A stretch of DNA of 64,000 bases. Origin: Chthonomonadales bacterium (lineage in GTDB: Bacteria; Armatimonadota; Chthonomonadetes; Chthonomonadales; CAJBBX01). The DNA is taken from assembly GCA_020849275.1 (NCBI GenBank), contig JADLGO010000021.1:1-64000 (forward strand), in the 5' to 3' direction. This document shows, one piece after another, positions 48,662-55,676 of the stretch. The translations under genes were made by a program, and so were the position numbers. Position 1 is the stretch's first letter; each line of letters begins with the position of its first letter. The notes below the pieces were generated by a model. The model searched no databases and was not told the origin of the DNA. It saw only the letters and a program-made list of their open reading frames with translations.

Positions 48662-50983
48662 TCAATCAATTCCGCCAATGCTTGGCCCCACCGACTGCCC
48701 GAACGCGCCCGTCGTGAACCGCTGCAGCACGGGGAGCGCCTTGATGCGCAACTCGAAGTAGATCTGCCGCTGCGACTGGTAGCCGAACGGGCTGTCGATG
48801 TAGGTGAGCGCGGCCTCCAGGCAGTGCAGGTCACGCACGATTCGCAGGTGGCGGCTCTCGAAGCGATTGAGGTACCCGTTGTACTGCATCAGCGCCATCA
48901 CGCGCCAGAGGCGGCCAATCGGCAGATCGAGGTAGCCATTCACCTGCGCGAACCGGTGGCGCCGCGGGTCATAGCGCGTGACCACGTCGAGCGCGAAGTC
49001 CTGCCGACCGCGCAGTCGCAGGTCGTTCGTCACGGCGAGGAAGCGACCGCCGTTCGGGTCGAACGTGAACAGGCTGCGGAGCCGGGCCCAGTCCACCGGA
49101 CGCACGAGCAGGTTGGCGGAGAGGGTTTGCCAGGGCGCGCTGATCCCGCCAAAGGCCGACTGCGCAAAGTCATAGCCCACGCGCGCGGTGAGCTGGACCC
49201 GCCGATCGTCGAGGAAGCCGACGTCGGCGTTGAGCGTGTGGTAGTTGCCGATCAGATCGAAGCGAAACGGCGTGCCGCCCTCGGGGCGCTGGTAGCTGTA
49301 GCTGAGGTTCAGCCCGGAGTGGCGCCCCCAGCGTTGGGTGAGCGTGCCATTTCCGCGCACCACGTACTGCGCGGCGCCCTCGCCGTAGAGCGACTGCTGA
49401 AACCCGGCGGTCAGGTTGAGGTCGGTGTTGGTCGTCAGGCGGTAGCGCAGCGATGAGACGTCGAGGCCGGCGACGAGCCGCTCGGTGCGCACCCTGGCGG
49501 CGGCCGTTCCCGCGCCGCCGCCCTCGCTGTAGCGTCCCACGGCGAGCGCCAGGTTGAGCGGCACGCGAGAGAGCCACCCGCCCGTGAACCGGTAGTTCGT
49601 GAGCGCGACCTCGGGCATCCGCTCCAGGCCTCCAAAGTAGGACTGCGCGGTCGAGCGGCCGACCGGCACGCTGCGGTTGGCGACTACCTGGAGGCTGTAG
49701 TTGTCGGCGCGGTAGTCGGCCTGGGCGCGCGTCGCGAGCTGCTCCGTGCGCTGCCCGGCCGCTCCGCTCGACGCGCTCTCGTACCGCGAGTAGTCGGCGG
49801 TCATGTTGAGCCGGCCGCGCGGGCCGAGGCGAATCCCCTGGCTCACGTTCGCGGTGTAGGAGGCGGTGGAGAAGCCGGAGGAGTGCGTGGACTGCCGGCC
49901 GACGTTCAGCGACGTTTCCAGCGCGCCACGCGCCAGCCGGTAGCCGAGCCGCGAGGAGAGGTTGCGTGTCCGCGGCAGGCCATAGTAGCTGTCCTCGTTG
50001 TAGCTCGCGTCGAGCGACACGTCCTGGCCGCCCCCGAGCAGGCGGCGGGCGTTCAGCCGCCCGGAGAGGTTTCGGCCGCTCGAGGTGGTCGGGATGGCGT
50101 ACAGGGCCAGCAGACCGGCGTCACGCGCCAGGTCCCAGGCCTGCTCCAGTCCCAGCCCGATGCCCTTCTTCTCCATCGCGTCGACGCGGTAGAGGCCGGG
50201 GGCGCGGTCGCTCAGCAGGTAGTTGAAGGCTGTTTTGGCGAACCATCCCTCCTCGTCGGACCGGCCCACGTACGGCGTGTAGCTGCGGCGGGCGAGCCGG
50301 CGGTCGAGCGGAATGATGAAGGTCGGTAGCGTGATCACGTGGCGGCCCCACAGCACGAAGGAGGCCCGCTTGAGCGTGACCGAGCGGCCCGGATCGACGC
50401 GGATGGCGCCCGCCTCGATCCGGTAGTCGGGCCGAGGGAGCTCGCACGTGGTGGCCGCCACGTCGGTTCCCAGGATGGCCTCGCGTCGCCGTCCGCTCAG
50501 GCTCTCCGCGGACAGGAAGAGCGGTGAGAGCAGGCGCCCCTGCAGGAACTGCGGCGTCAACGCGGTGCGCAGGTTCTCCACCGTGTACGCGCGCGTGCGG
50601 GGCGCGAACCGGATCGCGTCGCCCAGGAGACGCTGATCGCGGTACGTGAGGGTGGGGCTACCCGTGAAGACGAGCTCGGTGTCGACGTCGCCGTCGACCT
50701 GCCCGGCGGTCAGCACGTACTCGCCAACCGTGAAGGTCACGTTGCGCGCGTGGACGACCGAGCCGTCGATCTGTCCCTCGCCAAACGTGATCTCGGCGAT
50801 GCCGGTTCCGAGGCGCGGTCCGACCCCGCCGGCCTGCGCCGATGAGGGCGGCGGCAGCGTCTCCGGTGTGGGGGCCGGCCGTTCCGAGCCCGCCGCGCCC
50901 GGCTGCCGCGCCAGGGCGCCACCGCGCGCGCCGAGGGCCAGAGCTCCCGCGGCGAGCACGACGGCGAAGGCCGGGGGCCTCAC
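48662..50983 (-). CDS. lptD: LptD-like outer-membrane LPS assembly protein
   Basis: The GTG start at 50983 overlaps the lptF/G stop (GTGA) and gives 773 residues. A signal peptide (FAVVLAAGALALGARGGALA) and a Pro-rich linker precede an OstA-like domain (EITFGEGQIDGS, then RNVTFTVGEYVLTAGQVDGD) and a long beta-barrel domain with alternating strands to the C-terminus. LptD inserts lipopolysaccharide into the outer leaflet. The barrel is divergent from that of Proteobacteria. Context with the permease supports the call. Confidence 0.8.
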   Translation of the reverse strand: MRPPAFAVVLAAGALALGARGGALARQPGAAGSERPAPTPETLPPPSSAQAGGVGPRLGTGIAEITFGEGQIDGSVVHARNVTFTVGEYVLTAGQVDGDVDTELVFTGSPTLTYRDQRLLGDAIRFAPRTRAYTVENLRTALTPQFLQGRLLSPLFLSAESLSGRRREAILGTDVAATTCELPRPDYRIEAGAIRVDPGRSVTLKRASFVLWGRHVITLPTFIIPLDRRLARRSYTPYVGRSDEEGWFAKTAFNYLLSDRAPGLYRVDAMEKKGIGLGLEQAWDLARDAGLLALYAIPTTSSGRNLSGRLNARRLLGGGQDVSLDASYNEDSYYGLPRTRNLSSRLGYRLARGALETSLNVGRQSTHSSGFSTASYTANVSQGIRLGPRGRLNMTADYSRYESASSGAAGQRTEQLATRAQADYRADNYSLQVVANRSVPVGRSTAQSYFGGLERMPEVALTNYRFTGGWLSRVPLNLALAVGRYSEGGGAGTAAARVRTERLVAGLDVSSLRYRLTTNTDLNLTAGFQQSLYGEGAAQYVVRGNGTLTQRWGRHSGLNLSYSYQRPEGGTPFRFDLIGNYHTLNADVGFLDDRRVQLTARVGYDFAQSAFGGISAPWQTLSANLLVRPVDWARLRSLFTFDPNGGRFLAVTNDLRLRGRQDFALDVVTRYDPRRHRFAQVNGYLDLPIGRLWRVMALMQYNGYLNRFESRHLRIVRDLHCLEAALTYIDSPFGYQSQRQIYFELRIKALPVLQRFTTGAFGQSVGPSIGGID

Positions 50984-52086
50984 TCCTCTCTCCAGAGCGC
51001 GAACAGCCCGATCCCTGCGAAGAGCGCATTCTGGCCCCAGCCGGCGACGGCGGGCGGAAGGACGTTGGGGTACCTGGCGCCCAGGATCTTGGCGGCGAGG
51101 AGAGTGTTCCAGTAGACGAAGACGAGGATGATGGAGAGCAGCACACCCATGAAGCTGCCGGCGCGCGCAAACCGTAGCGACATCGGCGGGCACACAAGCG
51201 CGAAGACGAGACACGAGAAGGGGACCGAGAGCTTGAAGTGGTAGTCGAGCAGGTCTTGCGGGTTCACCCAGCCCGCGCGGCGCTCGTCCGCGATGCGCCG
51301 GCCGAGTTCCGACCAGGTCGAGGTGGCCGACTGCGAGTAGAGAGGAAGCTGAAGGTAGATCAGGTTGAAGGTGCGCTCGGCCAGTCGGAAGGGGATCTCG
51401 AGCTGGTCGGCGTGGGTGTAGGTCTCGCGGCGGCCCGCGTCCTCGTATGCGTGGACGCTGGCGTCGTAGAGCGTCCATACCCCGTCGGCGTAGGCGGCGC
51501 GCGGCGCCACGATCACCGTGGGCGTGGGCTGCGCGCTGCGCGCGGCGAGCATGGTCACGTCGTAGAGTAGCGCGCGGCCGCCCTCGAGCGCCATCCGGCC
51601 GATGTAGACGGTGTACTTGCGGTCCGGTGACTGGACGACCTGACGCTCCCTGGGCGCCAGGAACGGCATCGAGCGCGAAAGTTGGCTCATGGTGCGCTCG
51701 TACTGGCGCGTGGCCCAGGGCACCACCCGTTCGCCGAAGGCGAAGTCGCCCATGCTCAAGAGCAGTCCGGCGGACCAGATGGGCAGGAAGATGCGCCGCA
51801 GGCTGATGCCGGAGGCGCGCATGACGGTGATCTCGCTGTCGCGCGCCAGGCGGCTGACGGCCAGCGACGCGGCGATCGCCGTCGCCACGGGCATGGTGAG
51901 GCTAACGAGGTACGGGAGGAAATAGAAGGCGATGCGCGCGACCCCCTGCGCGGGGATCCGATAGTTCAGAAAGGTGTCGGCGTTGTTGTAGAGGACCGTT
52001 CCGGTCAGCATGAGCACGACTGCGCCCTGGCCTATCAGGAACGGGACGATCATCTCGCGCGCCATGTAGAGGTCGATCCGTTTCAT
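50980..52086 (-). CDS. LptF/LptG-family LPS export permease
   Basis: The 368-residue protein starts KRIDLYMAREMIVPFLIGQG, with TM1, then TM2-3 (RIAFYFLPYLVSLTMPVATA), the coupling helix SLAVSRLARDSEITVMRASG and SLRRIFLPI, a periplasmic beta-jellyroll (about 130-260) and three C-terminal spans. It forms the inner-membrane part of the Lpt bridge with an LptB ATPase. Only one such gene is present here, so F and G may be encoded separately or act as a homodimer. The start codon lies 7 nt after a TATAAT box. Confidence 0.88.
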   Translation of the reverse strand: MKRIDLYMAREMIVPFLIGQGAVVLMLTGTVLYNNADTFLNYRIPAQGVARIAFYFLPYLVSLTMPVATAIAASLAVSRLARDSEITVMRASGISLRRIFLPIWSAGLLLSMGDFAFGERVVPWATRQYERTMSQLSRSMPFLAPRERQVVQSPDRKYTVYIGRMALEGGRALLYDVTMLAARSAQPTPTVIVAPRAAYADGVWTLYDASVHAYEDAGRRETYTHADQLEIPFRLAERTFNLIYLQLPLYSQSATSTWSELGRRIADERRAGWVNPQDLLDYHFKLSVPFSCLVFALVCPPMSLRFARAGSFMGVLLSIILVFVYWNTLLAAKILGARYPNVLPPAVAGWGQNALFAGIGLFALWREE

Positions 52087-52093
52087 CAGCCAG

Positions 52094-52122
52094 ATTATAA
52101 CACCGCCTGCCCGCGCGGTAAA
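52094..52122 (-). promoter_or_regulatory. Promoter of lptF/G-lptD, predicted leaderless
   Basis: Minus-strand TTTACC (52122-52117), 17 bp, TATAAT (52099-52094). Only 7 nt separate the -10 box from the ATG at 52086, so the transcript should start at or next to the start codon. No ribosome site precedes the ATG. Confidence 0.75.
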
Positions 52123-52191
52123 CGGGCGCTGCCATCGGCCTCCGCACCCGCAGTCCCGCACAATCGCCGGCAGGCTCCGCCGCCGATCCAC

Positions 52192-52636: not shown

Positions 52637-54118
52637 GTGTCTGCGCCCGGCTTCGCTCGCGCCCTCTGGGTCCGCGTGCTGACCGTACCGATCGCCGTCT
52701 TCCTGCTCGGGATGCTCGTGCCCGGCGCAGTCGCTTACTCGCTGCTCGGACGGCTGGCGGAGCGCGAGAGTTACGAGAAGGCCGCCTCAGTCTTTGGCGT
52801 GCTGGAGGCCGTCCGCCAGGCGCCGGCGGGCTCCCGTGTTGGCGGATGCCAGGCCGCGCTCGGCGCGGCGCGTTCTCAGCAACGCTCGGGGTCGGAGGTG
52901 CCCTTCCGCTACCGTCTCGTCTCGCTGACGGCTGTCCGCGAGGACGCTCGTCCCGACCGCTACGAGCAGCAACTCCTGGCGACCTTCGCGGCCGATCCAC
53001 GCCTGCGCCGAGTGCAGGAGGAGGTTCGGCTTAACGGCGAGCGCACTCGCGTCGTGGCGGCCCCGGTCGTGGCCGAAGGCGCGGCCTGCGTGCGCTGCCA
53101 CGGCGCCCGCGGCGGATGGCGCCCTGGGGCGGTAGTCGGCGCCTCCGTCCTCTACCTTCCCGCCGGCTTCACCTACGCGCAGAGTCAGCGGGTGTTCCGG
53201 GTCACCGTGACCCTTGTGGCGATCCTGTGCGCGCTCGGCGCCGCCGCGCTCGCCCGGCAGGTCCACGTGCTGGTCGCGGCTCCGGCACGCGATCTGTTCA
53301 GCGCCAGCCAGGCGATCCGCCGCGGCGACTGGTCCGCGCGCTTCCCGGCGGTCGGGCACACCGAACTCACGGCGCTGGCCGCCTCGGTCCAGGAGACGAC
53401 CCGCTGGCTGCGGGAGCGCGTGGCGCAGGAGGAGAAGCTACGCGCGATGTTCCAGCAGTTCGTTCCGGCCTCGGTCGCCGCGCGTGCCCTCGGGCGTGAC
53501 GCCGAGGAAGCGCTTGCTGGTGCGCGCCACCCGGTCACCGTCATGGCGGTCAACGTCCGCAACTTCCGGCTTCTCATGGATCACCTGCCGCCCGCGCAGA
53601 CCGTCAGCACGCTGAACGAGTTCTTCAGCCAGGTCAACGCGGCCATCGTCGAGCACCGGGGCATCGTCAGCAAGTACCTGGGCGACACGGTGCTCGCCAT
53701 CTTCGGCATGCCCCTGGGCAACGATGGCCATGCCCTCGACGCCGTGCGCGCCGCCCTGGCCATCCCGCGCGCGCTTCACGACATGTACCTGCAGCTCGAT
53801 GAGGACCACGACTGGCAACTCGGCGTCGGCATCGGCATCGCCACGGGCGAGCCGATCGTGGGCTACTTCGGATCGGAGGAGCATCGCGAGTACGCGGTGC
53901 TCGGCGAGGCGGTGGCCGAGGCCGCCTGGCTGGAGAGCCTGAGCAAAAGCGTGCCGGAGGAGGACACCATCGTGATCTCGGAGCGGACCTACCGCGAGGT
54001 GATGTCGGATGTGCACGTGCACGACCTCGGGGAGAAGGTGACCCCCTCCGGCGCGACCGTCCACGCCTTCGTGGTGCAGGGGCTTCGCACAGAAGCGCGG
54101 ACGGCGCTGGCGAGCTGA
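52637..54118 (+). CDS. Membrane haem-sensor protein with degenerate class III cyclase domain
   Basis: The 493-residue protein has TM1 (residues about 13-35), a periplasmic DUF3365/Tll0287-like domain with a c-type haem motif CVRCH (151-155), TM2 (about 187-207), a HAMP domain (about 208-262) and a class III nucleotidyl cyclase domain (298-460). In the cyclase the first metal Asp is Asn306, Asp350 remains (KYLGDTVLAIFG), and the transition-state Asn and Arg are Ala427 and Trp431. It is therefore probably not an active cyclase but a signalling domain. GTG start. Confidence 0.85.
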   Translation: MSAPGFARALWVRVLTVPIAVFLLGMLVPGAVAYSLLGRLAERESYEKAASVFGVLEAVRQAPAGSRVGGCQAALGAARSQQRSGSEVPFRYRLVSLTAVREDARPDRYEQQLLATFAADPRLRRVQEEVRLNGERTRVVAAPVVAEGAACVRCHGARGGWRPGAVVGASVLYLPAGFTYAQSQRVFRVTVTLVAILCALGAAALARQVHVLVAAPARDLFSASQAIRRGDWSARFPAVGHTELTALAASVQETTRWLRERVAQEEKLRAMFQQFVPASVAARALGRDAEEALAGARHPVTVMAVNVRNFRLLMDHLPPAQTVSTLNEFFSQVNAAIVEHRGIVSKYLGDTVLAIFGMPLGNDGHALDAVRAALAIPRALHDMYLQLDEDHDWQLGVGIGIATGEPIVGYFGSEEHREYAVLGEAVAEAAWLESLSKSVPEEDTIVISERTYREVMSDVHVHDLGEKVTPSGATVHAFVVQGLRTEARTALAS

Positions 54119-54298: not shown

Positions 54299-54892
54299 GT
54301 GAACATGAATAGCCCCTCTCCAGCAGACGCGCTGGACGCACGACGACGCAGGCTTGATGAGTTGTTCGCCGACCAACCGTATCTCTCTGCAACGATGAGA
54401 GCCGCGCAGATGCACGCTCGCAGCCACGATGCGGCCCCCCCGTTCACGATCCCGGTGGTGCCCGGCGACGATGTGGCCCGCAGGGTACCCGAGTCGCGCG
54501 CCGGCGGCGCCCCGGCTCCCACGTTGCTCTCGCGCTGCCTGGACATGGTGCCCGGGCCGACGGCGCCGACCCGCGCGCCTCAGCCGGCGCCCGTCCCGGC
54601 GGCGGCCCCGGCACCCGTGGCGCGCGCGCTCGCGGTGCCCGACGAGGGTGCCCTCTACCTGGGCCTTACCGTCGACACGCGCCAGAGCCCCGCCGAGGTG
54701 CGCGTCGTGCCGATCTCCGGCCACACCGCGCCGGACGTGATGACGCCGCGGGAGGCGGCGGAGTATCTCCGCTTCGGCGAGAGCACGGTGCGGCAGTGGG
54801 CCCGCCTGGGGCGCCTGCCCGGGATCCGTATTGGCGGCCGGCTGCGCTTTCGCCGGCAGGCTCTCCTGAAGTGGCTTGCGGACCAGGAGTAG
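54299..54892 (+). CDS. Helix-turn-helix (excisionase-type) DNA-binding protein with disordered linker
   Basis: The 197-residue protein ends in a MerR/excisionase-like domain of about 50 residues: MTPREAAEYLRFGESTVRQW, then ARLGRLPGIRIGGRLRFRR, the HTH_17 pattern. The N-terminal 145 residues have a short helical start (DARRRRLDELFADQPY), a Pro/Ala linker and a small beta segment LYLGLTVDTRQSPAEVRVVP. No phage genes are near, so it is more likely a chromosomal regulator. Start GTG 54299 or ATG 54305. Confidence 0.75.
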   Translation: MNMNSPSPADALDARRRRLDELFADQPYLSATMRAAQMHARSHDAAPPFTIPVVPGDDVARRVPESRAGGAPAPTLLSRCLDMVPGPTAPTRAPQPAPVPAAAPAPVARALAVPDEGALYLGLTVDTRQSPAEVRVVPISGHTAPDVMTPREAAEYLRFGESTVRQWARLGRLPGIRIGGRLRFRRQALLKWLADQE

Positions 54893-55049: not shown

Positions 55050-55676
55050 ATGGCGAAACTGATACTTCTGCGTCACGGGGAGTCCACCTGGAACAAGGAG
55101 AACCGCTTCACCGGCTGGATGGACGTGCCGCTGAGCGAGCAGGGGGAGCGCGAGGCCGCCGCGGCCGGGGAGCGCATGCGCGACGTGCGCATCGACGAGG
55201 TCTTTACCTCTGTGTTGAAGCGGGCGATCGACACGACAACCATCGCCCTGGAATCTGCTGGCCAGCCGAACGCGCCGATCCGCTACGACAGCGCCATCAA
55301 CGAGCGCATGTACGGCGATCTCCAGGGCCTCAACAAGGCGGATACCGCCCGCAGGTTCGGCGACGAGCAGGTGAAGCTCTGGCGCCGCGGCTACGACATC
55401 GCCCCTCCGAACGGCGAGAGCCTCAAGGACACCGCCGAGCGCGCGCTTCCCTACTTCCACGAGACCATCATGCCCGAGGTGCTCTCTGGCAGGAACGTGC
55501 TCGTATCGGCGCACGGCAACAGCCTGCGCGCGATCGTGATGGACCTGGATGGCCTGACGCGCGAGCAGGTCCTCGAGCTGAACATCCCCAACGGCATCCC
55601 GATCGTGTACGAGATCGCCGCCGACGGTAAGGTGGTCGACAAGCAGGAGCTGACGGGCCAGGCGGAGGTCGCGTGA
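55050..55676 (+). CDS. gpmA: 2,3-bisphosphoglycerate-dependent phosphoglycerate mutase
   Basis: The 208-residue enzyme interconverts 3- and 2-phosphoglycerate in glycolysis. The catalytic histidine is in LILLRHGESTWN (residue 9), with the family segments NRFTGWMDVPLSEQGEREA, SVLKRAIDTT, NERMYGDLQGLNK and the second His in VLVSAHGNSLRAI. It is about 35 residues shorter at the end than the enteric enzyme, a common short form. GAGG lies 10 nt before the ATG. Confidence 0.95.
   Translation: MAKLILLRHGESTWNKENRFTGWMDVPLSEQGEREAAAAGERMRDVRIDEVFTSVLKRAIDTTTIALESAGQPNAPIRYDSAINERMYGDLQGLNKADTARRFGDEQVKLWRRGYDIAPPNGESLKDTAERALPYFHETIMPEVLSGRNVLVSAHGNSLRAIVMDLDGLTREQVLELNIPNGIPIVYEIAADGKVVDKQELTGQAEVA

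Follow-up and report, generated by a model that had tools for sequence, protein, structure and literature searches.

A conserved receptor with a class III cyclase domain predicted to be inactive, and its neighbour genes, in the Chthonomonadales

The locus raises the question of what a membrane receptor can signal when its output domain has the fold of a class III cyclase and has lost key catalytic residues. The receptor is encoded in the window, which here means the whole stretch of 64,000 nucleotides that was analysed. It belongs to a 4.8 Mb genome, 99.9% complete, from the order Chthonomonadales of the Armatimonadota. A first-pass annotation, made from the sequence of the window, had described the protein as a haem-sensing receptor whose cyclase domain has lost key catalytic residues and probably no longer functions as an enzyme.

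Architecture and catalytic positions of the receptor

The receptor gene and its parts are located as follows.

52637..54118, forward strand: receptor gene, 493 aa (open reading frame, Pfam, orthologues)
52757..53161, forward strand: periplasmic Tll0287-like sensor (PF11845, sCache_heme), residues 41-175 (Pfam)
53087..53101, forward strand: CVRCH, predicted c-type haem attachment site, residues 151-155 (HMM alignment; missing from three orthologues)
53273..53410, forward strand: HAMP, residues 213-258 (sub-threshold Pfam match here; alignment)
53525..54034, forward strand: predicted class III cyclase-fold domain (pseudo-cyclase), approximately residues 297-466 (PF00211, structure model, Foldseek)
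53552..53554, forward strand: Asn306 (AAC), in place of the first metal-binding Asp (codon and alignment)
53684..53686, forward strand: Asp350 (GAC), the second metal-binding Asp, kept (codon and alignment)
53906..53929, forward strand: Glu424, Ala427 and Trp431, at the positions of the base-specifying Asp and the transition-state Asn and Arg (codon and alignment)
54035..54115, forward strand: C-terminal tail, residues 467-493, much of it absent from other cyclases

The order of the domains is a first transmembrane helix, the periplasmic Tll0287-like domain, a second transmembrane helix, HAMP, a linker, the pseudo-cyclase and a conserved C-terminal tail. The reading frame opens with GTG, and a GGAGG about 7 nt upstream is a plausible ribosome-binding site. 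Hydrophobic segments near residues 9-38 and 185-205 flank the periplasmic domain, which matches PF11845 with an E-value of 7e-13 (49.7 bits against a cut-off of 24.1), while residues 298-466 match Guanylate_cyc, PF00211, with an E-value of 8e-14 (52.1 bits against a cut-off of 21.9). Coordinates, Pfam matches and hydrophobicity therefore agree with the first-pass placement of CVRCH in a periplasmic domain between two membrane spans, followed by HAMP and a class III cyclase fold. The HAMP part of this architecture comes from a match at residues 215-253 that is below the cut-off in the window receptor (17.6 against 25 bits), together with a match above the cut-off in the orthologue G011. The full-length AlphaFold model of the receptor is unusable (pLDDT 51), and the evidence for the fold is that of the cyclase part modelled alone (pLDDT 76.7, pTM 0.79). 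In a Foldseek search, the best solved-structure matches of this model were CyaB, Cya2 and CyaC, and a class III fold is predicted for the domain.

Two features define a class III cyclase as an enzyme: two metal-binding Asp residues, and a transition-state Asn with a transition-state Arg. In the window receptor, the first is represented by Asn306 and Asp350 and the second by Ala427 (GCC) and Trp431 (TGG), and at codon level these are exactly the three substitutions and the one retained residue that the first-pass annotation had read. Position 306 is Asn in all four orthologues, the window receptor included, and Asp in each of the 39 other cyclase domains of the phylum that were compared; position 350 is Asp in all four. 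The transition-state Asn column holds A, V, L and L in the window, G011, G006 and G007, respectively, and the Arg column holds W, W, N and N, where the 39 other cyclases invariably have Arg. The metal Asp and both transition-state residues are missing from every orthologue, so that the losses are a conserved property of the receptor. The alignment columns are unambiguous against the 39 other cyclases, and catalytic residues at shifted positions were not found.

At the base site, position 346 stays basic (K/K/R/R) and position 424 stays acidic (E/D/D/D) in the four orthologues. In the window receptor Lys346 is kept, and Glu424 is a change at the base-specifying Asp, a position that varies widely among active relatives. 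The Thr that follows the FxxFT loop has become Arg or Lys in all four (position 311), which means that the triphosphate site is changed. Taken as a whole, the residue pattern makes it very likely that the domain has no cyclase activity. Because neither of the two defining features holds in this protein, the window receptor is a class III cyclase by fold and not by enzyme criteria.

A separate group of ten cyclase domains in related genomes (L009, L010 and L012-L019) keeps the metal Asps and the Arg and has Val at the transition-state Asn (TVVVSARLQ). Their base site is non-acidic, several read as long membrane proteins, and they are possibly non-standard cyclases.

Orthologues, constraint and the sensor domain

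The full-length receptor was found in four of 12 genomes of the same family: the window genome, G011 (52% identity), and G006 and G007 (43%). A search of 291 genomes of the phylum added cyclase-domain relatives only. Among genome contigs, a scan with the single protein gave no match, and an alignment-based scan returned the three orthologues and one distant cyanobacterial cyclase. A tblastn search of plasmids gave cyclase-domain matches only, none of which covered 80% of the query. In a tree of 43 domains, the four receptors are monophyletic with a support of 100/100 on a long stem (1.34), and the window receptor is sister to the other three (94/73). The long-branch neighbour L046 leaves this monophyly unaffected. 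This shows a single origin for the catalytic losses of the four receptors.

Conservation is unevenly spread along the protein. When the window receptor is compared with those of the other genera, the sensor is 16-33% identical, HAMP 45-56%, the linker 63-73%, the cyclase domain 58-67% and the C-terminal tail 55%; between genera in general, the tail has 55-66% identity. The G006/G007 pair has a synonymous distance of 0.36 for the gene as a whole. In this pair dN/dS is highest in the sensor (0.135) and falls to 0.026 in the linker, 0.021 in the cyclase domain, 0.018 in HAMP and 0 in the tail. In an orthologue set of four sequences, two of them nearly identical, the residues that are invariant in the receptors and rare in active relatives map to the linker, the surroundings of the former active site, W393, H416 and the tail. 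Few parts of the receptor are under tighter constraint than the dead cyclase domain, whereas the sensor is labile.

It is clear from this that the receptor is a retained pseudo-cyclase under strong purifying selection. A decaying gene on its way to loss would also have lost catalytic residues and might also be present in only four of the 12 family genomes, but the intact frame in four genomes and a dN/dS of 0.02 on the dead domain refute such a reading. With the domain so tightly constrained, decay is as good as ruled out.

The variable part of the receptor is the one that carries the predicted haem site. An HMM was made from 11 further PF11845 proteins of the phylum, with the window protein left out; aligned to it, CVRCH falls on the CxxCH of the family, a motif that is 99% conserved among sCache_heme proteins (PMC12889525). 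Alignment found no CxxCH in the receptors of G011, G006 and G007. The whole haem segment is missing from the G011 receptor, and G006 and G007 carry an unrelated stretch at that place. Against PF11845, the G011 orthologue scores 19.7 bits, below the cut-off of 24.1, and G006 gives no match; the G011 sensor still scores as a relative of PF11845 proteins. Taken with the conservation of CxxCH across the family (PMC12889525), this makes a loss of haem in the relatives more likely than a gain in the window receptor.

Membership of the Tll0287-like/sCache_heme family and the presence of cytochrome c assembly genes in the genome support, as a prediction, a c-type haem in the window receptor. Such genes are also present in G006 and G007, even though their receptors are without CxxCH. 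G011 (L049, L053), which is 97% complete, is the only one of 31 genomes of the class with no detectable PF01578 cytochrome c assembly gene. The description of the protein as a haem-sensing receptor can thus be retained, as a prediction, for the window species; as a general function it fails, since CxxCH is missing from the other three orthologues and haem sensing is therefore not what has been conserved.

sCache_heme domains fused to signalling modules are reported to behave as NO sensors, and stand-alone members as redox proteins (PMC12889525). The NO-sensing subgroup (cluster 2) is marked by a signalling fusion together with the lack of an axial Cys. In the window receptor the domain is fused to a signalling module. 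Cys71, a possible axial haem ligand, lies near the position of the axial Cys of stand-alone sCache_heme members but out of register with it in the alignment. A sequence search of the PDB with the sensor alone returned nothing meaningful, the sole match being a viral polymerase (E 0.26).

Neighbouring genes and a shared motif

Downstream of the receptor, the following features were located.

54305..54892, forward strand: HTH_17 (excisionase/BldC-like) protein, 195 aa, with the N-terminal motif RRRRLDELFADQPYLSATMRA (Pfam, NCBIfam, co-conserved)
54341..54421, forward strand: N-terminal motif of the HTH protein, common to a small protein downstream of an ExeA-like ATPase
55050..55676, forward strand: gpmA-like phosphoglycerate mutase (assigned to its family by sequence; the following gene at all four loci)

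The receptor, the HTH_17 protein and the gpmA-like gene are adjacent in this order in all four loci. The HTH protein is assigned with 58.5 bits to PF12728 (cut-off 27) and with 51.9 to TIGR01764 (cut-off 28.8). In G001 and G029 the gpmA gene is present although the receptor is not, which weakens the case for it as part of the system; it is probably a mere neighbour. Upstream of the receptor lies a divergent LptF/LptG-type permease gene in the window (50980-52191, reverse strand), a metK-like gene in G011 and a ParA-like ATPase in G006 and G007. A long frame that follows the permease gene in the window (48662-51478, reverse strand) looks like an outer-membrane LptD-like protein and has no significant Pfam match.

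The motif of the HTH protein, RR[RK]LD[DE]LF..QP[YF]LSATM[KR]A, was found at 54341-54421 of the window, at L050:1880-2254 and at G000:C15:35629-35769. It also opens a small protein, with no Pfam match, whose gene directly follows that of an ExeA-like ATPase and precedes that of a ParA-like ATPase. These three genes lie directly upstream of the receptor in G006 and G007, and in the window genome they are at contig C15:34752-36773. In six of the 291 phylum genomes the motif is present: twice in each of the four receptor genomes, and once each in G005 and G029, where there is no receptor. Its co-occurrence with the receptor has a hypergeometric probability of 5e-8 in the phylum and 0.01 within the family, values that are not corrected for kinship.

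An orthologue of the ExeA-like ATPase is found in all six motif genomes, with 70-81% identity between genera, and one of the ParA-like ATPase in five of them, with 66-68% identity. For this reason the ExeA-like ATPase would be the better candidate for the target of the motif. The motif has the look of a peptide for docking or for activating an ATPase, in a module not described so far. Two genera encode a protein of 620-704 aa immediately before the ExeA-like ATPase (L107:6813-8675 on contig C15 of G000, and L051:1021-3135 in G007), and the G000 copy has no Pfam or NCBIfam match.

A possible signalling mode and its relation to known systems

The reading preferred here is a signal-gated docking receptor in which selection has kept the dead cyclase, with the co-encoded HTH_17 protein as the likeliest partner; as a whole, it is given an even chance of being correct. 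The periplasmic domain would change state, probably with a c-linked haem in the window species and haem-free in its relatives. The change would then travel through HAMP and the linker and reach a dimer of the pseudo-cyclase, which would make no cAMP or cGMP and whose change of shape would bind or release a partner. This part, a signal that runs through HAMP to a dimer that binds or releases a partner, is judged probable. That the partner is the HTH_17 DNA-binding protein is evenly poised; adjacency of the two genes does not prove contact. By its N-terminal motif, the HTH_17 protein may in turn connect to the ExeA-like ATPase, and usually also to the ParA-like one, coded in the same genomes. 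More tentative is a wider system, not described so far, in which the pseudo-cyclase anchors the HTH protein and the motif engages the ExeA-like ATPase, the ParA-like ATPase or both, with no second messenger. It is rather doubtful, and if true would let an extracytoplasmic signal act on spatial or assembly control. The earlier suggestion of a pseudo-cyclase with a binding or partner role is in line with losses common to all orthologues in a strongly constrained domain, and stands as a prediction.

The same domain could instead sense nucleotides, binding ATP or GTP without turnover through Lys/Arg346, Asp/Glu424 and Asp350, so that the nucleotide level, alone or together with the periplasmic signal, would set its state. 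These residues remain in all four receptors, position 424 staying acidic despite its wide variation in active relatives, and some residual nucleotide binding, or a very weak activity, may have survived. The first metal Asp is lost, however, and position 311 is Arg or Lys throughout, and nucleotide sensing is considered unlikely. Catalysis by relocated or substituted residues is a far smaller chance, even though 'dead' enzymes sometimes turn out to be active and Asp350 and the base-site residues are kept: the relevant loops hold no shifted Asp, Asn or Arg in the alignment, and positions 427 and 431 carry different substitutions in different genera, which is unlike a new catalytic set.

Class III cyclases are dimeric. 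Besides the receptor, the genome encodes three PF00211 domains, among them one (L001) with the metal Asps, Asn and Arg intact, and the receptor might act as a dominant-negative subunit that switches off an active cyclase of the cell in a heterodimer. In the active site of these enzymes, the metal Asps come from one chain and the Asn/Arg pair from its partner. In a heterodimer with an active chain, one site would lack the first metal Asp and the other the Asn/Arg pair, and we infer that such pairing cannot rescue activity. HAMP together with the linker speaks for homodimers, the Tll0287-HAMP architecture is absent from the three other cyclases and no cyclase gene lies within the conserved neighbourhood, which leaves a dominant-negative role improbable. 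A haem/NO or redox receptor in which the haem is central and the output unimportant would be consistent with the intact CVRCH, the 99% conservation of CxxCH in the family (PMC12889525) and the cytochrome c assembly genes of the window genome. This reading is already disfavoured by the orthologues, three of which are without CxxCH, with G011 also lacking a detectable cytochrome c assembly gene, and by an output conserved far better than the input; it too has little probability. The docking receptor is thus kept as the working reading.

The first-pass annotation had noted that a redox- or NO-sensing input with a non-catalytic output would be unusual. The combination of sCache_heme, HAMP and Guanylate_cyc is already among the known architectures (PMC12889525, figure 2), so that the arrangement itself is not novel; the conserved dead cyclase with partner genes is what remains unusual. 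The surprise is a conserved dead output with its own partner gene, and not a lineage-specific haem sensor. Literature searches on bacterial pseudo-cyclases found no account of a bacterial class III cyclase receptor as a pseudo-enzyme that is both dedicated and conserved. The present case combines orthologues in several genera, selection on the dead domain, a haem-losing sensor and a conserved partner gene. It offers a natural test of whether signalling by a class III fold can do without a cyclic nucleotide, and cautions against labelling genes of this kind adenylate or guanylate cyclases.

Among known systems, the sCache_heme (DUF3365/Tll0287-like, PF11845) receptors (PMC12889525) share the periplasmic CxxCH domain, the two transmembrane helices and HAMP, and differ in that the output is dead here and the haem site is lost in three orthologues. 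CyaB (3r5g), Cya2 (2w01) and CyaC (1wc1) have the same fold (Foldseek E about 1e-14, TM-score to the target about 0.8) and the same motif register, but the first metal Asp and the transition-state Asn and Arg are missing in all four receptors. For the associated proteins, the ExeA-like P0007 matches the ExeA/XrtA-associated ATPases (TIGR03015) over its whole length with 137 bits against a cut-off of 324, and is a relative only; the ParA-like P0006 matches ParA/AAA_31; and, HTH_17 apart, the proteins that share the motif have no match in Pfam. Non-catalytic GGDEF/EAL receptors and pseudokinases keep a degenerate enzyme domain as a regulated binding module. They come from other enzyme families than the class III cyclase domain of this receptor.
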